A DNA stretch of 64,000 nt, taken from positions 1,116,001 through 1,180,000 of the forward strand of contig NC_083511.1 of NCBI RefSeq assembly GCF_032362555.1, given 5' to 3'. The DNA comes from Amyelois transitella. Lineage: Eukaryota > Arthropoda > Insecta > Lepidoptera > Pyralidae. Shown one piece after another: positions 10,693 through 54,451 of the stretch (its first letter is position 1; each line of letters opens with the position of its first letter). Below the pieces are notes generated by a model that was not told where the DNA came from, searched no databases, and saw only the letters and a program-made list of their open reading frames with translations. The translations under genes and the position numbers were made by a program.

Positions 10693-10806
10693 CTAAGACC
10701 CAGGCCAATCAGAAAAAAGTTATTTTCTCATCATGCCCTGGCTGGGATTCGAACCCGGGACCTCCGGTGTCACAGACAAGCGTACTACCGCTGCGCCACA
10801 GAGGCC
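10693..10806 (-). repeat. tRNA-derived SINE head
   Basis: The minus strand reads GGCCTCTGTGGCGCAGCGGTAG (split here as GGCCTCTG, TGGCGCAGCGGTAG), then TGACACCGGAGG and GGTTCGAATCCC, i.e. A and B boxes, followed by CATGATGAGAAAATAAC. The acceptor ends do not pair, so it is a SINE. The matching tail of this family is seen at 44896-45057. Confidence 0.7.
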
Positions 10807-15598: not shown

Positions 15599-15708
15599 AG
15601 TCGTTAAAATGCGGCTTGTGGTCCCAGGATGTGTGAACGACGCCCGCGCAGTTCCAGCTCTGAGGGTGTTCGTACTGGCGTCCGCAATGGCGCTATATCT
15701 GACCATGG
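15599..15708 (+). other. K2P exon A1: 5' UTR end, start codon and most of TM1
   Basis: Acceptor TTGTTACAG ends at 15598. Ten untranslated bases follow, then ATG at 15609. The exon encodes 33 residues ending in ALYLTM and stops before GTAAGT at 15709, phase 1. The hydrophobic run [16 protein letters not shown] continues into exon A2, so TM1 is split by the intron. Confidence 0.8.
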
Positions 15709-16699
15709 GTAAGTGTTATCTATATTTCCAATCCTAACACCAAAACATATTTATCTACATCCCAACGAACATACGCCAAGGTGAACAATGTCTACACAGT
15801 TATGCAATAAATATTTTGAGTTTGAGTTGTCAATTTATGTTAAATTATTTATTTCACCTGATGAATATAGCGAGGAACAATTTGAAACGCAATTTATCTC
15901 AAGGCATACAAGATAATACAATTATTGCAAACGATGTGTCTGCACATACGAAGATTAACGTTCTTATTGCTTTACTTGTTTTGGCAAGTCACACAAATCT
16001 CACTTACTCATTGCAAAATAATCAAATATTCAGTGTGAAATCTACGTTAACATATACCTACATAGGTAGACAGAGCTAACAGTCTTGAAAAAGAGACTGA
16101 AAGGCCACGCTCAGCTGCTCGATTTAAGATGGAATTGAGATTCAAATAGTGACAGGTTTAGCCCATCGCCTTCAAGAAGAATACAACTTTACCTAGAAGA
16201 AGAATCACAAGGTTATTAGTCCTTTTTAAAATGACATGCGAAGGAGTCAACTGTCACACACGCAGATGATTAATACATTTATTTATTGTTTGCTCACAAA
16301 AACATGATGTTTATTAGCCTTTCCCTTAGTCGCCTACCTACCTTAATCCACATTAACCTTGACGAAAGCTCCTTTATTTCTGTTCTTATATTTTTTTATC
16401 AAAGAGAACAGAACTTTCCTAACAAAAGCGGCCGTACTTTCTTCGTCTGTCAAACTTTCAGCATATAAATGTTGAGGGTAGTAGGCGAATTCTCCAACAG
16501 TCACAAATATTGTTATGATATTAAGTAAGACTAACTTTTGTCTGCAAACTTCGTACGTGCGATATCTCCGAAATCACATATACACTTAATACATACATAC
16601 ATGTATTACATTATATCTGACACGTCTTCAACCTTTAAGGGGCGGACATAATCAGGAATCTAAGTGACTCAAGCCCCGTAAAGAATTAAAACATAATCC

Positions 16700-16730
<31 letters not shown>

Positions 16731-19700
16731 GTAGTAACCTAACGGTGTCTGTACTTGAAAGATATTGCCAAAATCGATATGTGTATGAATTTTAATTTTT
16801 GTCTGTCTGTCTGTATACTCGCATCATGCGAAAACTATTGTCCGTTTTGCGTACGGTTTTCTCAGATGATACATTTTAGTAGATAGACATTTTTATTTTA
16901 TTTTTCTACTGAACTGTCTCTCCTCACCCTTTTGTGGGAGCACCACAGTGGTCACCTTTTTTCATTTAATAGCGGACGAAGTCGCGGTTTGAAAATAAAA
17001 ATGCTTTTATTTCGTTCACTGTAAAGTATAAAAAATATGCATTAAGACTTTCTAGTGAGCAAAATATATCAAAAATTACTGCTTTTTCTGAGCAAATGTT
17101 ATATTTTTATTTATATTTATGTAAGTAGTTACATAAGATCTTAATTCTATCATTAAGCCAAGCAGGTGAACGTGACCTTTTAGTCTTTTGTTGACCGTCG
17201 GCTCTGTCTACCCCGCGGGGATGTGGACGTGATTATAATATACTATGTTACGGAATAATTATGTAAGTAGTTACATAAGATGTTAATTCTATCATTACGC
17301 CAAGCAGATGAACGTGGCCTTTCAGTCATTTGTTGACCGTCGGCTCTGTCTACCCCGCAGGGGATGTGGACGTGATTATATTATGTTACGGAATAGCCCA
17401 ATTCTAAACAATCCATCTTGGAATCCCCGGGCAACTCGTGGAATACTTTAACGCTCTTCATTTCGTCGGCGAATGTTATAAATCGTTTTGTAAAGAAAAA
17501 AGAGCGAATTGTATGGAATTTTCCCACATTTTTTTTTAAAAGCCACGGTGTTTTATCTTCAAGATGTTGTAAAATGGGTATTTTCCTTAACTTCCTTTGT
17601 AAAAGTCCCGTACAAAATGTAAAGGTTCATTTTATCAAGAATCATATGTAATTAGTAGGTAGCTATATGTATGATTATTTAATAAAATGAACCTATAATA
17701 CCATTTTTTTACTACCCTGAACCACCGACCCTGCAGAAAGAGAGTTATGGATGTAGATGAAACGAAAGAAGATGCAATCTCTGACTACTCCGGGAAGTGG
17801 CGTTTTTTCATATAGGAATATAAAATATGTAAATACGCGTTAAAAAACAGCCTGTTTGCAATAAAAAAAAATTAGATTTGACCGGTTATTTAATTAATGG
17901 TATAGAAATAATTATACATTAAGATTTGCTCCAAATAAATTGGGATCAGCGTTCCAAAAGCGTAGGTATTATGATAAATTCCAATTCAATATTAATTCGG
18001 CGACCATTTAAAATAGATTGGGAAGTTTACTTAAACAAATTCCACCCAAATTAATATCAGGGCTTCAATATACTTGTAGGCACTGGAATATTGTAATTGG
18101 TTTTATAAATAATGAATGGTAAACTGTTTAACCGTTAGCGCCCACATTTACGTCGAAACAAAATTTTGCTCTGAGAAAATGAGCAGGCGCTAAAATTGAA
18201 ATTTAACCTGGTTTGTTTTTAAACGATGTTTTAATTTCCTTTTTGTTTTTTAACGCTTGTGGAAAATTTAGAGTGCTTTGTTTAAAATTGAAACGTATAT
18301 TTTTGAGGGCCTAGTTTTTTTGTTACTGATCCGCATGGGCGTATATAGAGATTTACCTAGGGGTGGGCGGGATTTGGCCCCTTTGTCTTAACGTTTGAAG
18401 TCAATGGCCGAGATTTAAATCAGGTCAGGAAGAGAATGAGAGGAAATTAATTGGGCTCATCATGTAAAAGAAAAGCATCTTGTCAGTATAGAAAGCGACA
18501 AAAATTCAACTGTAATTAAAATCGCTTTGTTTTTACAGGAGCATCAGTGTTCCAAGCCATCGAAAGTCCACTAGAGAAAGAGATGGAAGAAAAAATGGCG
18601 CAGATCAAACTGGACTTCCTTAGAGACAACCCATGTGTCACAGGTAATTAAGTTATTGATAAATATTTATTTTATTTATTGGATTTGAATAGTTTAAGTG
18701 TCAGTTCACACCGAGGTAATATAGGTACGGCCTTAAGCTGCATTTAGCTTATAGAGCGATAATTTTTTTACTTTTAGTAAGCTAATAATATTAACTTTAT
18801 CTTCCTATCTTTTCATATCGAAGACAAATTTAAATTTCGAGCCGTTGTATTGAAATACATATATCTTGCTGTTGAACTGTGAAATATGACTTAAAAACAA
18901 ACTAATTTCAAAACTGGGGTTTAAAATTTACAATTGGACAATTATAGGTATACAACCTAAGTTACCCAGTAAAGTTTATATAATATGCTGTCATTTTGTA
19001 AATTACAAACAAACAAAGTTTATAAAAATGTTCAGTACACGAAATTTATAATGATTACTAAAGGAATTGAGTTTGAAACTTTTGAGACTTCAATGTGACA
19101 GAGGTATCAAATTTGAACGAGCTGTCTCAAGAGAGGACACCTGTCAATAACCTTAAGATAGGTTTCATTTTGAGTTTTGGGGTAAGCAACCTGACCCGTT
19201 ACTCATCGTTATAACTAGTTTTGGTAGGACCATTTAAGTTTGATATACGTTCGTCTGTTTATTTTTGATATTGTAGTTGATGAACCTGAACATAAATTGA
19301 TCAAATTCATATTTATAGCATCGAAATGTTGAAAAATCGGTTGACGAATTCAGGCACAAGAACGAAAAACATTAAGCACTTTACTTTTTTAAGCCTTTAA
19401 ATATTACGAAGAGAAAAATATGTATTTTTTACTACGCTTTTATTAGCTTGGGTTGTATGTATGTATGTAACGGAATCTTTGAGCTTAATTATGATGTAGA
19501 TGATATTCACATTTGATAATTTTTTTGTTTGTCACGAATAAACTCAAAAACTGCTGAATTATTTTTTTGATATTTGGCAATATCTTTATTAGCATTAATC
19601 GCGTATGCTTATATTTTGAGTGCAAACAGGAGCTAAAATGTTAGGGTTCAAATTATCACGATAGAACGCACCGCTTTGACGCACTTAATGATAACTATGA

Positions 19701-22700
19701 TAAGAGCACATTAGTACCCGAGTTCTAAGTAAGTAACTCTCGAACCTACTTATGTAAGAGTCACTATCTTTCATAGAATTAATACATGATAATATTATTG
19801 TGTCAAGAGGGCGAATACTTTGTTCATTAGGTACTAGCTGTGAACTGCAGCTGCGCCTGCGTCACAATTAAATGCCGATGTTACTTGTTACGAAATTTTA
19901 CACGGAGATAAAATACATTTTTATTTTACCTCCATGTAAAATTTTGTCAAAAATGATCCAGTACAAATACAAATATTTTATTTATTTATTTACTAATTTA
20001 TGTATACAGAAAACATCGAGACTGATAAACACAAGAAACAAAATTACAAAGGTTAATTTTTTTCTTTATAATATTGGTACGGATGAAACTTAACTTCCGT
20101 TTGGTTTTATGCAGATTAATAAATGTCTTGTGGTTTCCGTTATTTTAAATTAGAGCAATTCCATCCATTATCCTGGGCCAGAGATTCAGTTCCTGCGATT
20201 CGTAAATGGGTTTATATGAAAATAAATTATAATCAAGAAATCTCTAAAACTACTGAGCCAATATAAATGAAATTTGGAAGACAGGTAGACTGTAATAAGG
20301 AGACATCCGCTATGTAAGGAAGGACATTTGTTAATTCCATTTCTAAGGAGTTATAATAGGTGTTGCAAGTTTGTACCGTTTGATCTACTACCCGATGGCA
20401 GCCTCGAGATTTTTATGTAACCTACATGTGAAATACGTGGTCCAGGGGTATACTTAGGAGACGTTTTGTCGAAATTCCTACGTTATCGAGAGTTAACGGG
20501 ATTTACCGTTGTACGCGGGCGGAGTCGCGGACTTCCTTAAGTGTTTAGAAAGATATCGATCGGAAGGGCCTTGAAGCAGTGGTACAGCACAAGCTAATAA
20601 AAATTGTATGATCTGCAGTTAATTCATGCACTTCTAATTGTAATGGACCTATCGTTCAGCAAACTCGCTTAGTTATAATTCAACATGCCCTTGGCGCTTT
20701 TGTTTCTAGAACAACAGTAAATGTCCAAGTATATCGATCGACGCTATGCTGTCTTATTTGTATTCGTTTACTACACGAATCAATTAAATGAAATTCTTTC
20801 TTCACTGCTAACTGAAGTATTAAGAGATGTTACTCCGAAATTCCCACGAGTAGGGGAAATCAACAAGATTTTCCCATCCAAGCCCTCCCCAAGAAACCTA
20901 TAAAAGGTTGGCCCCTCGAATAAAAACTATATGAATACGCCCATGAGTAAACCCGGGACCTCAAATTCAGACAAGTAAGTTACCACGTCGCCAATGGGGC
21001 CATATATTATATTATGTAGTTACAATATTAACGATATAGATACCAAACTTTCTTATCAATAGTATAGTATCGCATGTTGGTACCTAATTAAATAATGATA
21101 AGAGTGCCCCGAGGAATGAATACGAGTACTTGGCGGTAGATATCGCCTTTTATTGAATCACCGTCCACTTAAAAACCAGTCAGCCATCGGACACCGGCCC
21201 CGTCGCATCGAGACGTTGCACTCACGCGCATATAGGGCTTCCGCCATATTTGATTACAAACTACACAGTGCTCCACTAAAATGTATCAAAATGGTGATTC
21301 TTAAACTCGAAAAATGCCGATGTGATACTAAAGTGACGGAATGTGTTATGTTTGTTGAACCTAATCACCCTAAAAGGTTTTTCAAGTACAGTTGACCAAA
21401 ACTCTGCCCTTAAGGGTTCTAAACTGACACGTGAAGTGAAAAAATTGAAGTGCGCTATCGTAATTTCAAATTTGCATTTCGAACATTTGAATATTTCACC
21501 GTTAATCGAATTTGGAATTTTAAAATTGACATTGATTTCTTTTTCACTTTTTAACAATGGAGAAGCTGAAGTATACGCGTATACAGTCTTATGGAAGTAT
21601 GAGTTCTGCACGAAGTGAGGATGATATGACTGTTCACAGCCAATTGTTTCCCTACCCGAAGAAGATGGTTGTGGAACAGGAGATATTGTATGAAGAAGAC
21701 CACCCGCCTTTTCAACCGTTATTCGCTACGACCAGAATCTTTGGAAAATCTAGATTCACTTGTCTTCTGCTGAGTTACGTGATATTTTACTTCGTGTATT
21801 TGGTGTCTGGCGCCTTGGTTTTCTCGGCCCTGGAGGCGCCTCTGGAGAACCAGATTAGGTTGGACGTGATTAGAGCCAAACAGGAGTTCATGTTGAAGCA
21901 CCCGGGTGTTACAGGTAAGAAATAACACCAATAAATTGTTAACATTAATTATATTTTATGTAGATGACATTTTTGGCGTTGGGCTGGCACCCTGTCTCTA
22001 TTTAAATCTCAGTTCCATCATTAAGCCAAACGGCTAAACGTGGAAAAAGTGTTGAAAAGGTTCTGTCTACCCCGCAAGAGATATAGACGCGATTTTATGT
22101 ATGTATGTAGATAAGATTTTGTCCAGGACTAAACATTTTCTCCATGGAATTTTCAAAGATTCTTCGCAAGTAGGTAGGTACATAAAAGTTAGACCTATAA
22201 AAGCTTTTTACTTTTTTATTAAGTACCTACATATATTAATGTGTTTGTTTGTCGTTATATCTTTTATCTTAGTTATCGTTTTTGATCAATATAAATACGT
22301 AACCGTTGGTAATATTCTATAGGGTAACAATTGTATAATTGTGTTCATGATTTTCGATACATAAACTTTGAAGTTATCGAATTCCCGGATGTGGGAATCA
22401 TTCACCAACAAATTTTTATGTAACAAATGTTAAAAAAAAGTACATGTAAGGTACTTTTTTCACCCATCAGTAGCTATACGGGGCACCCCTAAGGTGTGCT
22501 TGTTCCTTAGTCGTCTCTAATGACATCCACGTGAAAGACGGGTACCTATCACATTATCACTAAAACCATTTTATCTTTTTTTTTAATAAGCATTACTAGC
22601 AGGAACCTCTACCATAATGATAAATTAATTAATTAGACTAATTAAAACCATTGTGCAATTTGTCAATCAGTTTAACTGGTTTTTAAGTTACTATTTAATA

Positions 22701-25700
22701 ATACCTACGGTTTAAATTATTATCGCTCCGTTTTTAATCATCCATTATCACAGAATGCAAACTACTTACTTAATTTGTTAAATAATTAAAAAAAAAATAC
22801 AAATTGAAATTAGGTATATTCCTTTCTTTCTTGGAAGTTCTTGCAGAAATCGTGGCAAGTGGAAAGATGTAGAAGTCTCTGCCTACCCCTTCGGGAAAGA
22901 GGCGTGATTTTATGTATTTACGTATTAATTAATACGTACCCATCTGAAAAAAAAAACAATCTTTTAGAATTTGAACGAACTTGAAAATCACCAGTGGATA
23001 TTTCTCCGAATTAGCACCAAGTTCTATTCTTCCACAACATCAGTGTAAATACCAAAAATTATTTAAAAAAAAATATTATACTAGCTGTTGCCCGCGATTT
23101 CATCCGCGAAAAATATATTATATTTTTATATTATGAACTAAAAATGTTTAGTATGGTCTTGTGAGATAAAGCGTAAACATAGAGGTACATAAAAATGATT
23201 AAATACAATAAAATTGATGTCAAATAAAATCTACGCCTTATTTAACATCGTTTAAACTCTGCCTTTCTAAATAAAATAAATTCAACTGGAAAGCTAGACA
23301 TTTTATTACCGTTAACAAGTTTAACCAAACCTGTTTTTAGTTTGACAGTCAAATCTGTCGTGCAGTCACCTTTTTAATGGATGTAAGAACAAACAATTTA
23401 AAATATACTTAAAAAAAATATTTAATTGATAACTTTATTTTAATTAAATAAACACGAAATAACCCAAATTTACATACATATAGTCACGTCCATATCCCTT
23501 GAGGGGTAGACAGAGCCAGCAGTCTTGAAAAGACTGATAGGCCATGTTCAGCTTTTTGATCTAAAAGCAGAATCCCAAGTTTACAAGCCTAACCCAGTCG
23601 CCTTTTACGACATCCATGCGAAAGAGCAGGGGTAGTCCTAATCTTTTGTTTATTATTGGTACCGAGAACCCCACGGCATCCAAAAGTAATTACACGTATC
23701 TATATTAAGCCATTACACAAGGTTTGAAATTAATTTGAGGCTAACTCTATGGGTAACTTAATCTGTATATAAGTCCAAATACATTAATTTAATATCGAAT
23801 AAGATATTTTAAGTTACAATGTATATTTCTACATGCAATCCACATAACATACCCGATTACTTTCTTGAATTGACCGTTACTAAACCGATTTTAATGTAAC
23901 TTTGAATGGAATGTGCATTGTCTTAAACCCGACTGATATCAATCACTTTGAGAGAATACACTTCTCATGCTTTTTGTCAATTTTTTTTATAACATTCATA
24001 ACTACACATTTCTATTCTGCCTCTCACTCTGGAGAGGAGCCTGGCATACGCTCAAGACATTGAATCCTGAATAAGGACAGTCTGGTATTTTCACGAAGCA
24101 GATTTTCTTGATGACATCATACACATTTCAATTATGTAGCCTTTTTTATTGACCTTTTTATATAATATGATGTTTTATGAATATATGATGTTTTACGATA
24201 TGAATTAGGTGAGTCACGTTTTATCACGAAGCAGATTTTCTCGATGAAATCATACAAATTTCAATTATGTAGCAATTTTATTGACCTTTTCATATAATAT
24301 GATGTTATCTAAGTGTTACATAAACAAGACCAAAGTATATTATTTCGTTATCTAACAAACAGGAACGTGCTTGACCTCATTAAACTAATGACACTACCAA
24401 TTCTTAACTACTGTTACTGTTGTAATAAGTTATCAATTAGACTTATTACAGACGTAATTGATAAAGATTTTAAATATTTAACTTTGTAATTACTAGCATG
24501 ACATATGTTTGTTGTAGCAATATAAAATTTTGAACACTTATACTTAGGTGAACTGAGAAGTACCAGAAATGAATCATCAAAAATCGAGACTAGTACGCTT
24601 AAATAAAAATAGACTAAAATGAAAAGTCTAATGCCGTGTGGTTAACAACTTAAGAATAGGACCATTCCATATCTTTCTCATGGAAGTTGTAAAAAGGGGT
24701 TAAGGAAAAGGTTTATAAACTGGTGACTCTTGGGGATGTAGGCTTTGGGCTAGCGTCCTATTTAAGTCTCAATCTGTCACTATTTAAGTCTCAATGTGTA
24801 TAGCCTTTCGGTCTTTTCAAGACTGTTGGCTCTCTCTGCCCCGCGGATATAGACGTGATTATATGTATGTATATAATGTATTTGACGAAATATTCGTATT
24901 GAAATTATTAGTTTTACATTCATCCATGTTTTTTAATGTAGACAATGTGCGTTCGTACACGATTTAGATTTAAGAGATTTATATTTGTAAATTGACGTCC
25001 GGTGAATATACTGCAGTGTAGTTTGTTCCGCCGCTTCTTCTACACATGCGCTTTGGTAGTAGTTATAATTAGATTTAAGTGATGTGACGTCAATAAGTGA
25101 TCCAATTTTGGAAATAAATCTCTTCTATTCTATGTATGTAGAATTAAAAGTTACTGTAATAATAATATTATATTAACAAATTAATTTTGAACAGCAAACA
25201 ATATCTAAAACGGCCTATATATGTATGTAGCCATCGAATAATAAAGTTTCATCCAGTCTTTCGCAAACATTCTCCCAATAAGGTTACATGAAAGTTCCTC
25301 CGAGTGAATGCAAATATTTGTCGGTACATAGTTTCAGATATCTGTCCTAAACTAACATACCAACTGCTAGCTTAAACTGCACTTACTTTATTTCAACTAA
25401 CATGCATTACTAACATACATACATCACGTCTATATCCCTTGCGGGGTAGGCAGCGCTAACAGTCTTGAAAAGACTAAAAGATCGCTTTTAGCTGTTCGGC
25501 TAAAAGATAGAATTGAGATTCAAATAGTAACAGGTAGCTAGCCCATCGCCTAAAAGAAGAATCCAATGTTTATGAGCCTATCCCTTAGTCGCCTTTTACG
25601 ACATTTTCTTTGACTATTACTTTCTTTTATGGTATTTAATCACACGGTACAAAATATTTTAGGTATTATTTTAATCGATAAGGTTTTAATTTGATATTTT

Positions 25701-28700
25701 CAAGTGATTTTTTAATGTAATTTATTTGAAGTATCTATACTAATATTATACTTAAAGCTGAAGAGTTTGTTTGTTTGTTTGAACGCGCTAATCTCAGGAA
25801 CTACTGGTTCGAATTGAAAAATAGTTTTTCTGTTGAATAGACCATTTAACGAGGAAAGTTTTAGGATATATAACATCACGCTGCAACTTTAAGGAGCGAC
25901 GAAAAAATGGAAAATGTGAAAAAAAAAACGGGTAAAATTATTCATCTTTGAGGGCTTCAATGATGCCCAAAATAACTATTCAACGCGGACGAAGTCGCAG
26001 GCACAGCTACTATTATATAATATACTTGATATTGGCGTGTTACACTGTGTTACTTATTACTATATATATCTTTGTACCACCAAGCTTACACTCCCCAATT
26101 TTTTGCAGCTAATTTTAGTAACTGGAGGCAAAATGCGCAGTTGGCTTCTAAGTTATTCACAGCTCGGAACACACATTGTTTTCACGAACCGGTTATTTAC
26201 AAGCTTCGTACAAAGTTCCCGTTATAACCTGTGAATTTAAAAGTGCAGATGATTTTTTCGCGCCAAAACTTAACTATGAAACTGACATTGAATGACATTA
26301 GGTAATTACACAGGTTGATTTTATTATTTGTAAAGAAAATTTGTTATGATTTTTGCACTGAGTTTCGATAAAAACAAATATAAATGACGAAAAACACGTA
26401 AAATTTTTTTTTTTTTTTTATTTTTGTTTTTTTTTTGAGAAATGGTGATATGTAAGCACTTCGAGAGAAATGAAATTGTTCTATTCAAAAGAAAGTACGC
26501 AGCACCACACGGCCATGGTTCATATATGATGGGATGATACAAAAAACTAATTAGGTCAAGAACTTAATGACGTGTTATGACCTGGGTGAAATGTTATCGA
26601 TGTGTGGCCCGTGTCTGCTCCCGATAATGCGCAGACGCAATGGCTTGACGTTGTTCTCGAGTAGCTGATACCAAGACTTCTCTCGTAGCGTTTTCCTGAA
26701 ATAAATATTCTCTAACAAAATAGAATATTTATTTCAGGAAAAAAATTAGAATAATCGTTAGAAACAGTAAACTACGTGTAACGATACAGGAGACCTTAAT
26801 TTTCTTTCAGAGCCGTTTAAAGGGCACCTAAACCTCTTTAATTAAGCTTTTTACCTAAATTAACAACTATGATCCAACATGAGCTAGATTCCCATATAAA
26901 AGAGTCGCGGAAGTTAGGCTGGGATTGCTTCATGGAACTTCCTCACAGACGGTGGTTAAAGACAATACAGCGATGCCGTGCCGGCATCGCTGTATTGTCT
27001 TTAACCACTCGACGCCGTTTTTATCGCGAGAAAAACTATCGCCCTTTCGCTTTTTATTATGACGTAAAACGGGACAGCGATATTTTTTGCTCTTCCAATG
27101 GAGGTCGCTAACATCAGGGGAATAATGGTGACTAACTACTCGTATATTTATCATTTTACTTAATTGAAGTCATAAGTTCACAAGTTTATACAATTTATAT
27201 CTTAACCAGAAGCTTATATTTTTCCGATAAAATGTAATTTATAGAGTGTACGAGTATACAGGGGGTATTACTCAACCCTAGATAACCTGTGACTCGGGTC
27301 TGGATGTAGTTTATTACATGTGACGTTACAAAATGGCCGCTTGTATGTGAACCAACAGGAAAAGAACACAGTGAAAGCAATTATAATAAACTAGCGTTTG
27401 CCCGCTGATCTGCCCATGTTTACCTGAAATTTCAATTTATGGGAATATTCAGGAAATAAGTTGACTATTTAAAGTTACTAATGCTCTTTACGACATCACA
27501 CACATCTCTCCAGAATAAATAAATTGATTTCTATCTCTCTCTGGCTTTAGCTCACTCACTTAATGTTAATAACGTACATATTCAAATAACCAAAACTACT
27601 AGACTTATTTTGATGATATTTCGCAAAAAGATCGAGAAATCCTTAAAGAGTAACTAGGCTACTTTTTTTCTGAAAGTTTCCATGAAAGCGAAGGTAGGTA
27701 GTGCCCAAAAAGGACACTGAAATAAAAAAGACTTAGTTAACTTAGAAATTAGTTCCATAGCTCTTTCATTGTTCATGAGTCGACTTGTGTAACAAAACTT
27801 CGTGTGTGTATCTTGTCTAAATATCCCGAAATTTCGTCGCGACAAGAGGGTTAAACCATCACAATGGCCCTTGAGGGCAGATGTTTCAGGCGGCCTCCTG
27901 CGGGAATAAGTGCTGTAGAGTGATAACGAGCGAAGGGCAAGGGACTCTGACCTACGTGCCTTTTATAAAGAAAGAAAATATCTGTTAGTTAGTGTTCTCT
28001 CCCGTGGGAATTTAAAAGCCATGATGTTACTTCTGGATATTGTTGTTGCCAGAATGTTTTTTTTTATAACATGGAGTTCTTTTTATTTTACTACCATTTT
28101 TTAACTTCAACTTAGTGAAATCAAAGAAATCGAAATAATTTAGTATGAAACATCGGTAGTTACGCCAGTATAAGAAACAACCCCCAAGATATACAAATAT
28201 AAACTACGAATTGAATACACCAGTTTCACCCCAAGTTTTGGGTGCATTTCAAACCACCTATCTATATAAGACAATATTCAAAAAGGTATAGTGTGCGTGC
28301 AAACCACAGTATACATAAATTTCTGTATACTATGCGGCAAACTATATAGTACCCTCCCTCCACCGATAGTCCCCTAACTGCACTACATTTGTGCGGGCTG
28401 TAGGTTCGATGCATCTCCGGAACTGTGCTAACGCCCTCACTGGGTCACCGGCTGCGACCTGGGTATAAGCGGAGCGGACTATACTTATTGTATGTACTTC
28501 TATACTCTAACAAATAAGTCGTATTGTTGTTTGTAACGAATCAAATCTACGGCGACGATATCTCTCGTCAAATTTCGTACGGATTGGCGCATAAATACAA
28601 AATCGTCGGAGTGTGAGTGAGTGAACATCCAGAGTGGCGCAAGATCTTCCCTGCCTGAAACGTCGGTCTTACTACAATCTCAAATACTTAATATAATAAA

Positions 28701-31700
28701 TATTGTCCTAGTAAACTTACCGCTTTTTAAAAAGACAGATTGTCTCATTTATAACATAAGTTCATTATATTAACTAAATAGCTTTGATATGTATGTATAA
28801 ACAGGGTTAACTAATGCATCTTTTGTATGATCCTGGTGTTTGTCCTTTGGAATACACCGCCACCTATTTATTACCTCTATTTCAAAATAAACCTACACAC
28901 TTTCAAAAAGCCATTTCTTAAAAAAAAAGGCCATTTCTTAATTTTTTTTTATTATAAATTAGTTGGTTTGCGATCCGCTCCGCTCATCACAAAAATATGA
29001 TCGTTAGCTCCCCGAGGTCAGCCTCTGTATCGGGGGGTGTGTCCGATACGCTAGTGTGTATGGAAACTTACCGTGTGGTCCTATGAGAAATATTCGTAGT
29101 TTCCATGCGGTCTTTTTTACATACATACATAAGAACTAGCTGTGCCCGCGACTCCATCCGCGTGGAATAGTTATTTTGGGCATCATTGCAGCCCTCAAGG
29201 GTAAATAATTTTCGCCGTGTTTTTTTCACATTTTCCATTATTTCTTCGCTCCTTACAGTTGCAGCGTGATACGTTATATAGCCTAAAGCCTTCTTCGATA
29301 ATTGGTCTATTCAACACAAAGAGATTAGCGCGTTCAAACAAACAAACTCTTCAGCTTTATAATATTATTATAGATTTTGACTACAGTTTTGTCTATCAGT
29401 CTATGTATTATAATTATTAATAGCTTTTTATATCGATTTAAAAATGACGAAGTTCCATACAAATTTGCACCCCCTATTTCTTCCCCTTGGGATAGAATTT
29501 CAGGATAAAAAGTAGCCTATATCTGTGCCGAATTTCGTTCAGATTCGTTCGGTAGATTTTGCATGATGCGCGTACAAACATACAGACAGACAGATGGACA
29601 GACAGACAGACAAAAATTCTAAAAAAAATTGTTTTGGCTTCTATTGACCCTAAAAAGACCCCTTATATTTTTTTTTCTTAAATATCTTCAATGTACAGAC
29701 AAAGTTCAGTTATAGTTTTATTATGTTTGGATAATAATCACGTCTCTTCCCTTATGGGGTAGACAGATCCTACTGGTTTGGAACGACTGAGAGCCCACGT
29801 TCGACACCGATGGGAACGAGAGTTTATTGGTGGTGGAACCACACGGCAAATAAAAATAATAAAAGAAAAAGAGATTTATTTTCAAAATACTTCATGACTT
29901 CTACACATATAGTCAAATCTACTAAGTACCGCTTCCAATCCGCAATGTGAAAGAGACGGGGAAGCAATTCTAGTACAAAACAACTTCTTCTTATGTGATT
30001 ATTAGAATAATATTATAATTCTCAGAATATAATTGATAATTGTATATTGAATAACTTGAATACTATCCTATCGAATTAGGTATATCTGTAATGATAGGTT
30101 AAGTTTGTGAAAATAAATAAATAAATAAAAATAAATAAATAAATAACTATACAACTATACCTTATGTTACTTCCATGCTTTTGCTTACAAATTTATGACA
30201 TTGACCTTTTCATAATGTCAATACCAATAAAGAAAGAGAAATATAAATATTTTATCTTTCAGTTTATATTTGCGAACCTTTTATTTCTCTGCTGGTGTCA
30301 AAACGGTCACTGACGAGGGTCGCAAATGTCAGACACCTCTGTCTTCTGACTTTTTATAAACAACGCACAATTAAGCCCCTTGAGGTAACTGTTGTTACTT
30401 TTTACAGTTTTCTGGGAAAAAAAATCTGAGATAGAATAGATTTATTTTCAAAATTGAATACAAGGTATCACTTATTGACGACACAGGCTTCCAAAACGCA
30501 TATGTGTAGAAGAAGCGGTGGAACAAACTACACTGCAACATTATCATCGGGCGTCAATTTACAAATATAGATCTCTTAAATCTAAATCGTGGACGAATGC
30601 ACATAGTCTACATTAAAAAATCATGAATGAATATAGAACTAATTACTAATACTAAATAACTTGTAAAATAGGTCTACCTAGTCCTTAAAGTGACATTGAA
30701 AACCTGTCACTTTATATGAGTCTCAATTCTATCAGTAAGCCAAACAGCTGAACGTATTATAATTTGTTATATTAGTATTTTCAAGACTGTTGGCTCTGTC
30801 TACCCCGCAAGGGATATACGTGATTATATGTATGTATGTATTTATATCTAGTACTTCAAAACATATCAGATCTTCGTCAAACACCATTTAGGTACATTAG
30901 AAATTTGTATGCAACATGCTTGTTATAGAGGTACATGAAAACTACATGAACTAAGTAGTAGAATGAAAGTATTTTTCGTTGACTTACTACATTTTACATT
31001 TAGCCACGTTGTTATCCCTTACGGGGTAGACAGAGTCCACAATCTCGAAGACTGAAATGCCACGTTCAGCTGTATGGCTTGATGGTGGAATTGAGATTCA
31101 AATAGTGATAATATAATAGCCTATCGCCCAAAAGCAGAATCCTTTGGAAACTTTAAAAACTTACTTTACAAATAGGTAAAAAAGGGACAAATTTAAGGGG
31201 CGCCAAAAATGCATTTCGTCTCATTCAAAAGGCTTGCCTAGGGCCGTCACACTTATCCCTAGTCACTCTTGGACCTGCCAGCGACCATCCCGTCCCTAAT
31301 GGCCCATTATAAATTAGATTACATTTACTGTACCTACCATTCACTCCGCCCTTCACCCTGATTATAAATTCTTAACTCCAAAACTCGATTTTCTACTTAA
31401 TTATCTGTATAACTGTACTATTATGAAGGTGAGACGATGTCATCTGCATTAATTTAAATTTGATTAAGATTTTCGTCGAATCATTTACCGACAAAGATTG
31501 AAAAAATTAAATATAAGCTTTTTTAGAAGTCTTATAATTACATAAATAAAATTGTACCGTGAGCGAATAGAGGGTGTTTTACTACTGTAGTTTTGTTGAA
31601 GTAAATGCTGCAGTGCAGTTTGTTACCGCTTCTTCTGCACTGACGCCTTGGAAGCGGCAGTAAACTTAGTTTTAAGTAATTTATTTGACGTCAACCAATG

Positions 31701-34700
31701 TTGTGAAACCAAACGTTTTGACAATTATTAAGCGATATGAAGTATCCTATAATAATGAATAAAACATTTGAATTTTGAATTTGAATTTAGTACCTAAAAT
31801 ACCAAGAGAACCTTTAACTTACAATGACAACCTCGCATGAAAATATTGATGAATGAATGATGAATGCGAAAGAAGTATGCAGTATGATCGTGGCTCGAGG
31901 TATATCAACGCAATGTATTAAATAGCGTGATTCTCACCTAAATTAGGGCCGTGCATTCCTTTCTTGTGGACTTTTCTTGCTTTTAATTCTTCTACCTATT
32001 TATTTTATTCCAAAAAAAAAGTTTTCAACCTGGATTGGATTCCTGGACCGTGGTCACAAAGTCGGGGAACATCCGAAAAAAAAAACCCGTGCACAACATG
32101 TTTTATTCAATATCGTTTTAGTCTACAAGTAAATCGACAATTAATTTTACGTTATTTGTGTTAAGTTTACATTTATTTAATTCCTTCTTCTTTCCCCAAC
32201 AGATGACGACCTGGAGTTTCTCCTTGACGAAGTGGTCCGAGCCAGCAACCGCGGCGTGTCGGCCTCAAAGAACGTGAGCGGCGGTCCTAACTGGAGTTTT
32301 GGACAGTCTCTCTTCTTCTCCTCCACCGTCGTCACTACTATAGGTAAGATATTGAGAGCTTCGAATCGGAGTGGACCTGATGTGAATAGTAGCGAAGGGT
32401 GCTACTTGGAACACGCAAAAATGAGGGAAGGTTGTTAGGATTAGTTTTGAGCAGACATACTAATAATCACGTTTATATACCCTTGCGGTAGACGGAGCCA
32501 ACAGTTGCGAAAAGACCAATAGGCCACGTTCAGCTGTTTGGCTTAATGATAGAATTGAGATTCAAATAGTGACAGGTTGCTAGCCCGTCGCCTAAAAAGA
32601 GAATCTCAAGTTAATTAGCCATTCCCTTAGTCGCCTTTTAAGACATCATGGGAAAGAGTTGGAGTGGTCTCATTCTTTTTTCTATTGTTGCCGGGAACAC
32701 GACACACACGACACACGTTTATAACTTAATCAAGAAATAATTGGTAGTGACACCTTTTTTTCAGGTTATGGGCACGTCACTCCCCTCTCCAAGCCTGGGA
32801 AGCTGTTCTGCATGATGTATGCTCTACTTGGCATTCCACTGACCCTGGTGCTGCTCTCAGCGCTGGTGGAGCGCCTGTTGTTACCAGCCACCGCCTTGCT
32901 GAGGGCGCTGAACGCGTCTCTTGGACATTTGTACCGGCCTTTTACAATAAGGCTGGTGCATTTGATGATTATTGGTGAGTGTTCGTGTACTTCATCTCAT
33001 CCTGGTTTATCTAACACCCGTGGGAGAGTTCTTTAATTTAGGTTAGGTACATGAACCAAACTGTTATGGCCACGAAAGAGAGACAAACAAATAAAGCAAG
33101 CTTACTGTATGAATGCGCATTATACGGTTTCCTTTCTCCAAAGAGGTTTTTTGAGGAAGGTTTATACCTGGTTATAAGTACTACCCGTGCAAAGCTAGTG
33201 ATAAATAAAAAATAGGATCGTTACTATTACCTATACCTACTTATATTGATGGATATTTAAGAAGGTCCTGGCAAAGGTTCAGGTCAAGAGTACCCGAAAC
33301 CGAAGAGCTTGCATGACTAGAGTTATAATTGTGGATGAAGCGAAAGAAGTTTGCAGTGATTGTGACAAGTGAAAAGAAATACCTAGTCCTACCCCTCCGG
33401 TAAAAAGGCGTGATTAAATGTATGTTTGTATGGATATTTAAGATCTTAAACCAAGGCCATTTTCCAAAACAAGTTAGTTTTCCACCATGAACCAGGGAAT
33501 GAATAGGTATCGAACCTGGGATCGGTGGTGCAAAACAGGACACTTCCACTGCACCTTACAATTAGTCCAGTAAAGTTGAACCATATTATCAGTTAATTTT
33601 TTTTTCGTGCCGTGTGGTTCCCGGCACCAATACAAAAAAGAATAGGACCACTCCATCTCTTTCCCATGGATGTCGTAAAAGGCGACTAAGGGATAGGCTT
33701 ACAAACATGGGATTCTTTTTTAGGCGATGGGCTAGCAACCTGTCACTATTTGAATCTCAATTCTATCATTAAGCCAAACAGCTGAACGTGATCTATTGGT
33801 CTTTTCGTGACTATTGGCTCTATCTACCCCGCAAGGGATAAAGACGTGACCATATGTATGTATGTGTTTTTTGTTTCGTTTCAGTAACATCCCTTGTGCT
33901 ATTCTTCCTGGTGGTCCCGGCCACGATATTCGCGGCCCTGGAGCCTGATTGGGACTTCCTGGACTCGTTCTACTATTGCTTCATATCCCTGACCACCATT
34001 GGGCTCGGAGACTACATCCCTGGGGACTCCCCGGGACAGGAGTACCGGCCGCTGTACAAAGTTGCCACCACTTGTAAGTATGGACTCAATATATTATTGG
34101 GAAATCTCAATTCTATCATTAAGCCAAATAGCTGAACGTGGCCATTCAGTCTTTTCAAGACTATGTCTACCCCGCAAGGGATATAGACGTGACCATATGT
34201 ATGTATTTATGTATTATTGGGAATAGAAGGAAACAGTTATTTTCAAAATAAGATACAAAAAGATGGATAAAAATGATGACAACAAAGTTTATAAATACCT
34301 ACCGCTTCCAAAGCCCAAGTGTAAAATAAGATGTGGAACAATTTTTTGATCTCGCCAAGCGGAAAGAGTGGTCTATGCCTATCCCTCCGGGAAATAGGCG
34401 TTATTTTATAAATATTAACAATAAAAAAGAATTTGATTTGAATTTGAGAATAAAAATATAGTGTGTACCAGCTGTCTCAGTTTCCGCGTAGATTGTAAAA
34501 TTCAGTCTATAAAGACTTAAACTTGGGATCTTCTTTTTGGCGATGGGATTTCAAATTTATCATAATACTACACTTAAGTACCTACATAATTAAATAAAAA
34601 TAACTAGCTAAACGTGGTCTTCAAGTCTTGTGATTTATTGACTCTGTCTAGCTCGTAAGGGAAAAAGACGTGGTCTGTGTATGTTAAATTTAAAATATAC

Positions 34701-35179
34701 CGTAATGTAGGTACTTCCGATTTTCTTTTATTTTGTATAATTTAAATAATTTCAAACATATGTTTATAGCCAACAGTCTTTACAAGACTGTTGGCTCTGT
34801 CTACCCCGCAAGGGATATAGACGTGATAATATGTATGTATGTATATGTTTAATATATAATGTCACATTCTTTTCCAGTCTACCTCCTCATCGGCCTGACC
34901 TTCCTGATGCTGACTCTAACAGTATTCTACGACATTCCCCAACTCAACCTTAGCACCGTCTTCTCATCAGTGAAACTTGACGAAGACCCGGAGAAGATGC
35001 GTCTCAGCGGCTCCGGGGTTATGGGCCCAGGGTACGGGATTGGCGGGTTGGTGATGAGAGATGATTATAATCATCACGATCAACGCAGGTCGGTGGTGCA
35101 CATCAGGCCTCACCTGGACGACAGCCCGAGCCCCGAAGACACCACGCCGGTGCATGCCAGGGACATGAGAGTACATTAA
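15609..35179 (+). CDS. TWIK-type two-pore-domain K+ channel (KCNK1-like), isoform A
   Basis: Leak potassium channel of the plasma or endosomal membrane. Coding exons are 15609-15708, 18539-18643, 32203-32343, 32765-32974, 33885-34073 and 34878-35179, giving 348 aa (human TWIK-1 is 336). Order: TM1 about residues 17-40, extracellular cap, pore helix 1 with filter TTIGYGH, TM2 ([15 protein letters not shown]), TM3, pore 2 with [10 protein letters not shown]4 ([17 protein letters not shown]), then a tail of about 75 aa. Sequence around [14 protein letters not shown] matches the TWIK-1 cap, including an N-glycosylation sequon (NVS) at the site glycosylated in TWIK-1. Cys in NPCVT aligns with the TWIK-1 cap cysteine that links the dimer. 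Every coding intron is phase 1, and one splits the first Gly codon of GYG, an intron position conserved in K2P genes. The start follows an AG acceptor at 15597-15598, so a non-coding exon probably lies upstream. The final exon is followed by AATAAA at 35404. Family is certain; the exact insect orthologue is not assigned. Confidence 0.92.
16055..16190 (-). repeat. ATGT-tailed SINE fragment in K2P intron A1
   Basis: AGACAGAGCTAACAGTCTTG and ATTCAAATAGTGACAGG are recognisable. The head is missing. Confidence 0.65.
17117..17395 (+). repeat. 142-bp tandem duplication containing a SINE tail
   Basis: TTATGTAAGTAGTTACATAA begins at 17117 and again at 17259. Both units contain ATTCTATCATTA, GTCGGCTCTGTCTACCCCGC and GTTACGGAATA. 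The copies differ at few positions. Confidence 0.85.
18539..18643 (+). other. K2P exon A2: end of TM1 and cap helix with Cys
   Basis: A 105-nt phase 1-1 exon between TTTTTACAG and GTAATT. It encodes 35 residues including [12 protein letters not shown] and DNPCVT. The acidic/basic helix resembles the TWIK cap helix. Exon B (21557-21916) carries the equivalent segment, so A2 and B are alternatives. Confidence 0.85.
18644..21556. other. Intron/alternative promoter region before exon B
   Basis: Contains repeat fragments at 20190-20535 (TTAACGGGATTTACCGTTG, CGCGGGCGGAGTCGCGG) and a degraded tRNA-like SINE head at 20934-20999 (minus). 21150-21290 is higher in GC and free of repeats, and probably holds the isoform B start site and 5' UTR. 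Confidence 0.4.
21557..35179 (+). CDS. TWIK-type K2P channel, isoform B (alternative first exon)
   Basis: The exon 21557-21916 begins at an ATG in a good context (ACAATGG) and encodes 119 aa. A cytosolic N-terminus of about 65 residues, rich in acidic and Ser residues, is followed by TM1 (about residues 68-92) and a cap helix containing [18 protein letters not shown]. It ends ACAG|GTAAGA in phase 1, the same phase as the end of isoform A's second exon, and so can join 32203 in frame. Total length would be 399 aa. Exon A2 ([15 protein letters not shown]) and this exon ([15 protein letters not shown]) are clearly paralogous. Where isoform A has NPCVT, this exon has HPGVT, so the cap cysteine is replaced by Gly. 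Because it carries its own ATG and no convincing acceptor, I read it as an alternative promoter rather than a cassette exon. No transcript evidence is available here. Confidence 0.88.
21973..22110 (+). repeat. ATGT-tailed SINE fragment just after exon B
   Basis: Begins 56 bp after the exon B donor. AAATCTCAGTTCCATCATTA, TCTGTCTACCCCGCAAG and TATGTATGTATGT are visible. Confidence 0.75.
22843..22925 (+). mobile_element. 5'-truncated LINE tail
   Basis: GAAATCGTGGCAAGTGGAAAG, shortened here to ATCGTGGCAAGTGGAAAG, then CTCTGCCTACCCC and GAGGCGTGATTTTATGTA. Confidence 0.7.
23471..23688 (-). repeat. ATGT-tailed SINE
   Basis: Tail ACATACATATAGTCACG to head GAACCCCACGGCA; the middle part (GTGACAGGTTGC) is deleted. 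Confidence 0.75.
24632..24882 (+). repeat. ATGT-tailed SINE, diverged
   Basis: TGCCGTGTGGTTAACA at the head, AAGACTGTTGGCTCTCTCTG and GATATAGACGTGATTATATG at the tail. Confidence 0.7.
25012..25135 (+). repeat. GTGATGTGACGTCAATAAGTG repeat (non-LTR 3' end type)
   Basis: CTGCAGTGTAGTTTGTTCCG, GTGACGTCAATAAGTGAT and an ATTCTATTCTA end match 51406-51662 and the inverted 30428-30655. Confidence 0.65.
25411..25610 (-). repeat. ATGT-tailed SINE
   Basis: Tail to TTACGACAT on the plus strand; the head beyond it is lost. Confidence 0.75.
25733..26010 (-). repeat. CCCGCGACTTCGTCCGCG-type repeat, inverted
   Basis: ATCTATACTAATATTATA at left and GCGGACGAAGTCGCAGGCAC at right, the reverse of the 12010-12271 copy. 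Confidence 0.65.
26691..26742. repeat. Perfect 21-bp inverted repeat, 10-nt loop
   Basis: Arms 26691-26711 and 26722-26742 are exact reverse complements (core CCTGAAATAAATATTCT). It could fold as a short hairpin. Confidence 0.85.
26952..27008. repeat. Perfect 27-bp inverted repeat, 3-nt loop
   Basis: Arms 26952-26978 and 26982-27008 pair at every base (GTGGTTAAAGACAATACAGC and its complement are the outer parts). Downstream 27043-27080 shares CGCTTTTTATTATGAC and AACGGGACAGCGATA with 51339-51371, so it belongs to a dispersed element. Confidence 0.9.
27380..29134. other. K2P intron B, mixed repeat debris
   Basis: 27390-27700 holds diverged repeat pieces; 27840-28560 has GC-richer stretches (TTCAGGCGGCCTCC, AACGCCCTCACTGGGTCACC) that I cannot assign. 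Confidence 0.35.
29135..29374 (+). repeat. CCCGCGACTTCGTCCGCG-type repeat
   Basis: CTAGCTGTGCCCGCGACTCC, TTGCAGCGTGATACG and ACTCTTCAGCTTTATAATAT in the same order as the other copies. Confidence 0.65.
29737..29849 (-). repeat. ATGT-tailed SINE, internally deleted
   Basis: Tail (AATCACGTCTCTTCCCTTAT) and head (GTGGAACCACACGGCA) are present, with most of the body missing. Confidence 0.6.
30110..30145. repeat. (AAAT)n microsatellite
   Basis: Repeated AAATAAATAAAT units with one interruption. Confidence 0.85.
30428..30655 (-). repeat. GACGTCAATAAGTG-type repeat, inverted
   Basis: TAGAATAGATTTATTTTCAA at left, GTAGAAGAAGCGG and CTACACTGCA inside: the reverse of 51406-51662. Confidence 0.7.
30701..30846 (+). 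repeat. ATGT-tailed SINE fragment
   Basis: 5'-truncated: TCTCAATTCTATCAGTAAGC to TATGTATGTATGTA, with a short AT insertion in the middle. Confidence 0.75.
31001..31145 (-). repeat. ATGT-tailed SINE fragment
   Basis: CCCTTACGGGGTAGACAGAG and TTGAGATTCAAATAGTGATA are visible; the head is not. Confidence 0.65.
31604..31793 (+). repeat. GCGGCAGTAAAC-family repeat
   Basis: Best preserved copy: CTTCTTCTGCACTGACGC, GGAAGCGGCAGTAAACTTAG, then an ATAATGAATAAAACATTTGA end with TTTGAATT repeats. Confidence 0.7.
32203..32343 (+). other. K2P shared exon 3: cap and pore helix 1
   Basis: A 141-nt phase 1-1 exon, from the acceptor CCCCAACAG to the donor GTAAGA. It encodes [20 protein letters not shown] through VVTTI, that is the second cap helix, the NVS sequon and pore helix 1, stopping inside the selectivity filter. 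Confidence 0.92.
32467..32716 (-). repeat. ATGT-tailed SINE in K2P intron 3
   Basis: Near full length, minus strand. Its head ends about 48 bp before the exon 4 acceptor. Confidence 0.8.
32765..32974 (+). other. K2P shared exon 4: filter 1 and TM2
   Basis: A 210-nt phase 1-1 exon. It begins with the last two bases of the first filter glycine (GYGHVTPLS), contains TM2 and the TM2-TM3 loop, and ends before GTGAGT. Confidence 0.92.
33249..33443 (+). mobile_element. 5'-truncated LINE copy with target-site duplication
   Basis: Body 33263-33429 (CAGGTCAAGAGTACCCGAAA, GATGAAGCGAAAGAAG, CTACCCCTCCGG, GGCGTGATTAAATGTATG). ATGGATATTTAAGA stands at 33249-33262 and 33430-33443: a 14-bp duplication. Confidence 0.85.
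33607..33866 (+). repeat. ATGT-tailed SINE, full length, abutting K2P exon 5
   Basis: GTGCCGTGTGGTTCCCGGCA at the head to GTGACCATATGTATGTATGT at the tail, 260 bp. Only 18 bp separate its end from the exon 5 start. Confidence 0.9.
33885..34073 (+). other. K2P shared exon 5: TM3 and pore 2
   Basis: A 189-nt phase 1-1 exon encoding TM3 ([17 protein letters not shown]), pore helix 2 and TTIGLGDY, then a loop ending VATT before GTAAGT. Its acceptor lies about 18 bp after the tail of a full-length SINE. Confidence 0.92.
34091..34224 (+). repeat. 5'-truncated SINE with 12-bp target-site duplication
   Basis: TATTATTGGGAA occurs on both sides of a SINE tail half (ATTCTATCATTAAGCC to CATATGTATGTATTTATG). 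Confidence 0.85.
34768..34845 (+). repeat. ATGT-tailed SINE fragment abutting K2P exon 6
   Basis: AAGACTGTTGGCTCTGTCTA and GATATAGACGTGATAATATG, ending about 32 bp before the exon 6 start. Confidence 0.8.
34878..35179 (+). other. K2P shared exon 6: TM4 and cytosolic tail
   Basis: Begins after CTTTTCCAG and ends at TAA 35177-35179. It encodes TM4 and a tail containing a His/Asp/Arg-rich stretch ([10 protein letters not shown]) and [11 protein letters not shown]. The position matching TWIK-1 Lys274 in my remembered alignment (ELKK) reads QLNL, so no lysine is present there. Confidence 0.9.
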
Positions 35180-38684: not shown

Positions 38685-40421
38685 ATGGATTCGCCGGTAT
38701 CTGCTTTCGCGATCTACAATAGTAAGAAGAAAGTTAAAAAGCAAGAAAAGAAGAAAAAGGCTTTAAAACCACAAGTTATTCCCTCACCAAAAGCAACAAA
38801 AGAACTGTCCGACGAGATCATGATGAAACTCGCTCATAAAGTAAAACAGATACAGAAAAAAGACAAAGATAGCAAAAACATTGCTAAAAAGAAACTTCAT
38901 AAGAAGAAGAAAAATAAGGAAGCGGTCCAACACAATAAAAGCTTCGAAGAAAAAGTAAAAAGAAAACAAAATAACTCTGAAAGTGAAGATATACCTGCAT
39001 TGATAACTGCACCTAAATTAGAAGCTGAAGAAAATGAACATTCAGATAATTGTAGTTTTGAGTTCACTCCTGTGGAAACTGATAGTGTTGAAGAAGGTCT
39101 GAAAGTTTTTAAGTGGATGATAGCACCATATGATCCAAATGATTTCCTAAATCGAGTTTGGGAAAAGAAACCACTTCATATAGCCAGAAACAAGCCTAAG
39201 TATTACAGGGATTTAATTTCAACACCTATAATTGACAAGATGCTACGTAATGACAACATCCAGTTCACAAAAAATATAGATATAACATCATATGTCGATG
39301 GCAAACGAGAGACACATAATCCTGAGGGCAGAGCCCATCCATACTTAGTTTGGGATTATTATGTCAATGGATGCAGTATTAGACTATTGAATCCACAAAC
39401 TTACATGCAAAAACTGCATTTATTAAATGCAACATTACAAGAATTCTTCAATTCATTTGTTGGTGCCAATGCATATCTAACACCTCCAGATAGCCAAGGT
39501 TTTGCTCCTCATTATGATGATATAGAAGCTTTCATATTACAGTCTGAAGGGAAAAAGCACTGGAGAGTTTACAAACCTATAACTGAAGAAGAAGTACTAC
39601 CAAGAGTATCCTCCAAAAATTTTGAGCAAGAGGAAATAGGAGAACCAATATTAGAAGTGACTTTAGAAGCTGGGGATATGCTGTACCTCCCTCGAGGCTA
39701 CATCCATCAGGGAGTGACTATAGAGGGTGAGCACTCACTTCACGTCACAGTCAGCATGTATCAGAAACACTCTTGGGCAGATTTATTCGAAAAAATGATT
39801 CCGGCTGCTTTACAACTTGCTATCACAGAAAATGTGGAATTCCGAAAAGGTTTGCCATTTGATATTTATGACAACTTCGGTCTAGTCAATTCCGACGTTC
39901 AAACTCCACGAAGGAAAGAAATTGAGGAACTTGTGAGATCTCTCTTTGATAAAATAAAAGATAATTTACCAATAGATGAGGCCGTTGATCAGATGAATAA
40001 GAATTATCAGCATGATGCATTGCCTCCTGTTCTGAGTGACTTAGAGAAGGCTGTCACAGTTTTTAGTGACAATGATGTTGTAATGAAAGATGGCAAAGTT
40101 TTGAATAGAGTTGAAATAAGTCTTGATACAAAAATTAGATTATTACGTAAGAATATTTTGAGAATGGTTTCAGAAGACCGAATCAGACTGTACTATTATG
40201 TTGAGAATTCTTTGGAATATCATGGAAGTGAGTTACCTTATCTTGAAATAGAGGAGGAATTGGCACCAGCAATTGAGACCCTGATAACTTCATACCCCCA
40301 GTATGTATCGGTGGAAAATCTGGATGCTCCAAATGAGTCAGATAAGCTACAAATAGCAGAGACCTTATGGTCAAGGGGGTTAATTATGTCAGAGTACCCA
40401 TTAGAAACTGTAGATGATTAA
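38685..40421 (+). CDS. NO66: Ribosomal oxygenase 1 / NO66, JmjC histidyl hydroxylase
   Basis: 578 aa in one uninterrupted frame. Fe(II)- and 2-oxoglutarate-dependent oxygenase of the nucleolus. The vertebrate enzyme hydroxylates a histidine of ribosomal protein uL2 (L8), and histone demethylation has also been reported. Residues 1-100 are very Lys-rich (KKKVKKQEKKKK, KKKLHKKKKNK) and would serve as nuclear/nucleolar signals. The cupin/JmjC domain covers about 145-370. The metal ligands are visible as H276 and D278 in APHYDDIEAF and H341 in YIHQG; the lysine in EGKKHWRVY matches a conserved block. The C-terminal winged-helix/dimer region contains ENVEFRKGLP and HDALPPVLSD, both typical of NO66. 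I chose NO66 over MINA/RIOX2 because of the long basic N-terminus and those C-terminal blocks. Human RIOX1 also has an uninterrupted CDS. AATAAA lies directly after the stop. Confidence 0.95.
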   Translation: MDSPVSAFAIYNSKKKVKKQEKKKKALKPQVIPSPKATKELSDEIMMKLAHKVKQIQKKDKDSKNIAKKKLHKKKKNKEAVQHNKSFEEKVKRKQNNSESEDIPALITAPKLEAEENEHSDNCSFEFTPVETDSVEEGLKVFKWMIAPYDPNDFLNRVWEKKPLHIARNKPKYYRDLISTPIIDKMLRNDNIQFTKNIDITSYVDGKRETHNPEGRAHPYLVWDYYVNGCSIRLLNPQTYMQKLHLLNATLQEFFNSFVGANAYLTPPDSQGFAPHYDDIEAFILQSEGKKHWRVYKPITEEEVLPRVSSKNFEQEEIGEPILEVTLEAGDMLYLPRGYIHQGVTIEGEHSLHVTVSMYQKHSWADLFEKMIPAALQLAITENVEFRKGLPFDIYDNFGLVNSDVQTPRRKEIEELVRSLFDKIKDNLPIDEAVDQMNKNYQHDALPPVLSDLEKAVTVFSDNDVVMKDGKVLNRVEISLDTKIRLLRKNILRMVSEDRIRLYYYVENSLEYHGSELPYLEIEEELAPAIETLITSYPQYVSVENLDAPNESDKLQIAETLWSRGLIMSEYPLETVDD

Positions 40422-54422: not shown

Positions 54423-54451
54423 ATTATACCCGTCCAGAGAGTGTACACAAG
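54423..54451 (-). other. 5' UTR part of the coding exon 1 of the nuclear-protein gene
   Basis: On the minus strand an acceptor (GTGTTTCAG) lies at 54452-54460, so 29 untranslated bases precede the ATG. A donor-like GTAACT at 54667-54662 suggests an upstream non-coding exon ending at 54668, with transcription starting somewhere in 54700-54960. Confidence 0.45.

Follow-up and report, generated by a model that had tools for sequence, protein, structure and literature searches.

A TWIK-type two-pore domain potassium channel gene in Amyelois transitella with two predicted alternative 5' coding modules that differ at the cap cysteine

The channel gene and its neighbors

The window, a 64-kb stretch of the Amyelois transitella genome (NC_083511.1, positions 1,116,001-1,180,000 of the forward strand, from an assembly of 327 Mb in 33 contigs), contains a gene predicted to encode a two-pore domain potassium (K2P) channel, with two pore domains and four transmembrane (TM) segments per subunit. 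Its exons, together with other features of the window, are listed in Table 1. Exons A1 and A2 make up one 5' coding module and exon B the other, giving an A form and a B form of the protein. A ribosomal oxygenase gene with JmjC_2 and RIOX1_C_WH domains in one open frame sits 3.5 kb downstream of the channel gene. We also noted a PBDC1 family exon (Pfam PF04669, E 3.4e-48), a 459-codon open frame on the minus strand that has a high content of Pro, Lys, Glu, and Ser and no Pfam match at E 0.01, and a tRNA-His (GTG)-like sequence reported by ARAGORN that is possibly part of a tRNA-derived SINE.

Table 1. Predicted exons of the channel gene, codons at the cap-cysteine column, and neighboring features; positions are those of the window.
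Feature	Position	Strand	Content
tRNA-His (GTG)-like sequence	10734-10805	-	ARAGORN prediction
Exon A1	15599-15708	+	Reading frame from ATG 15609; encodes a short N-terminus and the beginning of TM1 (MRLVVPGC...YLTMG)
Exon A2	18539-18643	+	Remainder of TM1, then first cap helix; closes with NPCVT in phase 1
Cys66 codon (TGT), A form	18634-18636	+	Column of TWIK-1 Cys69
Exon B	21557-21914	+	Cytosolic N-terminus of about 65 aa, TM1, and first cap helix in a single exon; ends HPGVT, phase 1
Gly117 codon (GGT), B form	21905-21907	+	Column of TWIK-1 Cys69
Shared exon 3	32203-32343	+	Second cap helix, NVS sequon, pore helix 1, start of first filter (..TTI)
Shared exon 4	32765-32974	+	GYGH filter, TM2
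Shared exon 5	33885-34073	+	TM3, second pore (TIGLGDY)
Shared exon 6	34878-35179	+	TM4, C-terminus, stop
RIOX1/NO66-type gene	38688-40418	+	Ribosomal oxygenase
Open frame	53094-54473	-	459 codons
PBDC1 family exon	58451-58858	+	PF04669

The channel exon ends were re-derived from the window sequence and then confirmed by translation. All six donors start with GT, and all six acceptors finish with AG, counting a putative acceptor before exon A1 (15598|15599). The donors of the 5' exons are GG|GTAAGT at 15708 for A1, CAG|GTAATT for A2, and CAG|GTAAGA at 21914 for B, while the acceptors of A2 and exon 3 are TTTTTACAG and CCCCAACAG (at 32203), respectively. The junction of exons 3 and 4 splits the first glycine codon of GYG. 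A first-pass annotation of this DNA had taken both A1+A2 and B to code for TM1 together with the first cap helix, to finish in the same phase, and to be able to join exon 3. Translation bears this out, with in-frame junctions that read ...NPCVT-DDDLEF for the A form and ...HPGVT-DDDLEF for the B form, and it also yields the two module endings that the annotation had described. Its end for exon B, 21916, proved to be 2 bases too far; its remaining coordinates are correct. Both frames stay open until the stop at 35179, giving 348 aa for the A form and 399 aa for the B form. The extra N-terminus of about 65 aa ascribed to the B form does precede TM1, but about 19 aa precede it in the A form; the two proteins differ in length by 51 aa.

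Comparison with solved structures (phmmer, Protein Data Bank chains) placed KCNK1 (TWIK-1) first for both the A form (E 6.7e-68) and the B form (E 9.2e-69), with KCNK6 next and the TREK, TASK, and THIK channels after. The bit scores for KCNK1, KCNK6, KCNK10, KCNK9, and KCNK13 were 233, 198, 167, 135, and 105 for the A form and 236, 196, 162, 136, and 98 for the B form. In both forms, the KCNK1 alignment runs from TM1 to past the second pore and TM4, and each form contains two Pfam PF07885 stretches. Among the solved structures compared, the gene thus appears to fall in the TWIK (KCNK1/6/7) subfamily rather than with the TREK, TASK, or THIK channels. With TWIK-1/KCNK1 (PDB 7sk0, 3ukm) and TWIK-2/KCNK6 it shares the two-pore arrangement by sequence, a GYG first filter, a TIGLGDY second pore, and, in the A form, a filled cap-cysteine column; it differs from them in having two alternative TM1/cap modules, one of which lacks that cysteine. 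The first filter reads TTIGYGH here and STTGYGH in TWIK-1, which places Ile, not Thr, at TWIK-1 position 118 (chain 7sk0). Since TWIK-2 as aligned (TTVGYG) likewise lacks the Thr, this residue is a trait of TWIK-1 and not of the subfamily. The filter threonine of TWIK-1 underlies its sodium leak in low potassium, and a channel with Ile in its place may therefore be more strictly potassium-selective.

Choice of the 5' module

An in-frame TGA at 21533 stands 21 bases before the ATG of exon B at 21557 with no AG between them, so B is, from its reading frame, the first coding exon of its transcript. Its use as an internal coding exon of an A transcript was rejected on the same ground. At the other module, a good acceptor ends 10 bases before the ATG of A1, and the frame is open from that acceptor on. 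There is thus probably a further exon upstream for the A form, whether coding or non-coding, and this form may carry a longer N-terminus encoded there. Exon B lies 2.9 kb past A2, within the 13.6-kb intron of the A form. An exon inside the intron of another form is a common layout for an internal promoter, and two promoters would be the simpler layout.

The first-pass annotation had gone further and read the locus as an alternative-promoter arrangement. Two 5' modules are very likely, but the acceptor before A1 also permits a single upstream promoter, with one or more non-coding first exons from which splicing would pick A1+A2 or B and leave both proteins unchanged. That acceptor makes an upstream exon likely for the A form, and two AG sites found upstream of B in 20500-21556, at 20710 and 21068, have scores similar to those of the acceptors of the gene itself. 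However, neither is near the ATG of B, and chance gives a similar yield: of the 489 AGs in 22000-32000, 25 score as high, which amounts to 2.6 per 1057 bases. Together with the familiar internal-promoter layout of B, this leaves a shared upstream promoter rather unlikely, though worth bearing in mind.

Our preferred reading is one of two alternative modules on a common body. Transcripts beginning with A1+A2 or with B would splice to the same exon 3, so that the pore body is common and the N-terminus, TM1, and the first cap helix are exchanged. The A form would keep the cap cysteine, and the B form would carry a glycine and about 50 extra cytosolic residues. We infer that the two transcripts both occur, in a mutually exclusive fashion, and that the choice of start site or of 5' splicing selects the module. 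Automatic annotation may already carry both forms as predicted isoforms.

The cap cysteine and its replacement by glycine

In both the phmmer and the further alignment, Cys66 of the A form, Gly117 of the B form, Cys69 of TWIK-1, and the TWIK-2 cysteine occupy one column, as the first-pass annotation had supposed in placing the swap at the point where TWIK-1 subunits are linked. The cap-apex cysteine of the TWIK subfamily is thus present in the A form and absent from the B form. The A form has cysteines at 8, 66, 131, and 217 and the B form at 69, 182, and 268; exon 3 encodes none, and the cap contains no other. B/B and A/B pairs would therefore be unable to form the apex bond, and the predicted crosslinking pattern, in which A/A pairs can be linked and A/B and B/B pairs cannot, follows directly from these positions. 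The partner of the cap cysteine is described differently in a review (PMC4436565).

The modules also differ in the charge of the first cap helix, which over 26 residues has 4 basic and 6 acidic residues in the A form and 4 basic and 3 acidic in the B form. Its spaced hydrophobic residues are kept in both (M/M/I/F in A, I/V/A/F in B, L/L/L/F in TWIK-1, as aligned), so a packed cap is expected with either module. A packed cap has likewise been modeled for TASK-1 (PMC4726246). The N-terminus of the B form holds two YxxPhi patterns, YTRI and YGSM, a motif common by chance.

The first-pass annotation had called the swap a switch of channel assembly, with one disulfide-linked form and one without the bond. 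The loss of the cap cysteine from the B form stands, but the stronger wording does not fit reported experiments. In recordings with Rb+, functional expression of TWIK-1 C69A was not greatly reduced (Goldstein et al. 2016, PMC4726246), and the same paper reports that TRAAK C78A, TREK-1 C108A, and TASK-4 C68A stay functional and that cysteine-free TASK channels work and form a cap. It also reports that TASK-1/3 shift on DTT gels as TWIK-1 does, so that these gels do not separate cysteine from cysteine-free channels; this weakens the non-reducing gels proposed earlier as a test of the two isoforms. An older result points the opposite way: according to a review (PMC4906011), C69 mutants in Lesage 1996 lost both the covalent dimer and function, and it is on this result that the assembly switch of the first-pass annotation rests.

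A true assembly switch, in which A/A dimers are locked by the bond and the B form is left free to pair with cysteine-free K2P subunits, strikes us as improbable. Such a switch would draw on the clean Cys/Gly difference in a cap with no further cysteine, on the different helix charge, on the loss of function reported for the C69 mutants, and on the suggestion that the cysteine may serve heterodimerization, for which a disulfide-linked TWIK-1/TREK-1 pair is cited, although this pair is contested and reports conflict (PMC4726246). Against it are the functional cysteine mutants, the reported pairing of TWIK-1 with cysteine-free TASK channels (PMC4726246), and the many further positions at which modules A and B differ. 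Because of the functional C69A channel and the uninformative DTT gels, we rate the bond as a secondary difference under the two-module reading; the exchange of TM1, cap-helix charge, and N-terminus is the likelier functional one. Through TM1 and the N-terminus, the forms would differ in trafficking, gating, or partner choice, and the redox-sensitive covalent bond within A/A dimers would have a secondary role, not that of an on/off control of assembly.

Divergence, maintenance, and relatives of the modules

Modules A and B are homologous. Their local alignment scores 80, a value reached by none of 2000 shuffles (mean 24, maximum 50), and a 40-residue core is identical at 16 of 40 positions (40%). 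BLOSUM62 sums over the 40-residue cores are nearly equal for A against B (80), A against TWIK-1 (80), and B against TWIK-1 (79), so the split between the modules looks about as deep as the split from TWIK-1, unless the modules evolve fast. Against the piece of TWIK-1 compared, the B form shows 41% identity. At the nucleotide level, the cores of A and B agree at 20/40 first, 28/40 second, and 14/40 third codon positions; third positions look near saturated and second positions conserved.

We also let either core drift neutrally to 16/40 identity, with 3000 runs in each direction under a crude mutation model. Stop-free cores remained in 613 runs for B and 547 for A, and no run in either direction gave a core that was both stop-free and as TWIK-like as the other module, a wide margin even for so simple a model. 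The simulation speaks against long neutrality; a recent loss of use of one module remains compatible with it. Codon usage was scored with a model trained on the 856 codons of the shared exons and the neighboring RIOX-type gene, with null windows of 33, 34, and 40 codons; the shared exons sat in the training set, and their own scores are therefore uninformative. A1, A2, and the TM1/cap part of B each scored above all 600 null windows. For the whole of exon B, 3 of 600 null windows (40 codons) reached its score, and the first 65 codons of B scored weakly (reached by 17 of 600 windows of 40 codons). Both modules look as if they had been maintained for a long time; that either is an old relic was rejected because the frames are open, third positions are nearly saturated, and the neutral simulation speaks against it. 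That only one module is in use, with the other a relic or a rarely used exon, is very unlikely overall: the weak score at the start of B would suit it, and recent disuse would leave no trace in the coding and simulation tests, but each module has an open frame and canonical splice sites and remains TWIK-like after near-saturated third-position divergence, a state that no neutral run reproduced.

Searches of the A. transitella genome, in which only the best candidates were scored, used the B form and the A module with exon 3. With the B form, 5 of 27 matches were the gene's own exons (86-99% identity) and the other 22 lay elsewhere at 27-51% identity, 21 of them overlapping PF07885 matches. With A plus exon 3, all 4 matches fell at the channel locus, B being the weakest. 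Among these candidates we found no second TWIK-type gene, and thus no such gene as a source of the exons of A or B. Within the window, tblastn returned only A1, A2, and B at E < 0.1. No insect copy was found in prokaryotic and viral contig collections, a scope in which absence says little; one repeat scan of prokaryote contigs gave 20 loci at 24-44% identity, in records with bacterial titles.

Paired TM1 modules were not seen in other K2P genes across 11 stretches of genome, a sample far from complete. A regular expression for TM1 picked out one TM1-like exon in each of stretches L056 and L062 and missed one in L053, which marks it as insensitive. With the modules as tblastn queries, weak matches came up in L053, L056, L062, and L061, among others. 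The L053 exon (3635-3901, minus strand) is separated by about 110 kb from K2P pore exons downstream of it, at C12:8064-8067 kb, and its assignment to them is a candidate pairing only.

Alternative first exons of K2P genes are already known. The C. elegans gene twk-40 is reported to produce isoforms a, b, and c from alternative upstream exons and to have two promoter regions that differ in their neuronal activity; mutants specific to single isoforms behave differently (PMC9049526). It resembles the present gene, whose alternative upstream exons are predicted, in being a single K2P gene of this layout. However, the twk-40 exons extend the N-terminus of a shared channel region, whereas here the difference extends beyond the cytosolic N-terminus, and TM1 and the first cap helix are themselves swapped. 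A parallel for the cysteines comes from the invertebrate Cav3 T-type channels, where exons 12a and 12b of one gene give extracellular turrets with different cysteines (PMC4436565); these belong to another channel family, are internal exons, carry 3 versus 5 cysteines, and have a measured effect on selectivity. Like TASK-1/3/5 and THIK, which have no cap cysteine (PMC4726246), the B form must hold its cap without the bond, but those channels are separate genes, whereas here the same gene also encodes a cysteine form. In the open-licence literature, judged from the titles and abstract openings of the best-ranked matches, there is no description of K2P isoforms in which TM1 is exchanged along with the cap cysteine.

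The DNA itself shows intact exons in a common phase and two homologous modules that have diverged under protein constraint and differ by Cys versus Gly at the cap column. We hold it to be highly probable that this is a TWIK-type K2P gene, single-copy as far as searched, with two homologous alternative 5' coding modules that join exon 3. More tentatively, it is possible that the gene is an old, conserved dual-module K2P gene in which promoter choice decides between a lockable and an unlockable cap. If so, it would give three dimer species on an identical pore, A/A linked and A/B and B/B unlinked, with differing redox sensitivity, trafficking, and partners. The alternative first exons of a K2P gene would then replace more than a cytosolic tail, namely a membrane helix together with half of the cap. 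PMC4726246 asks why K2P channels retain a cap cysteine that homodimers seem able to do without, and cysteine and glycine forms on one pore body, both apparently kept by selection, would offer a native test of its role.
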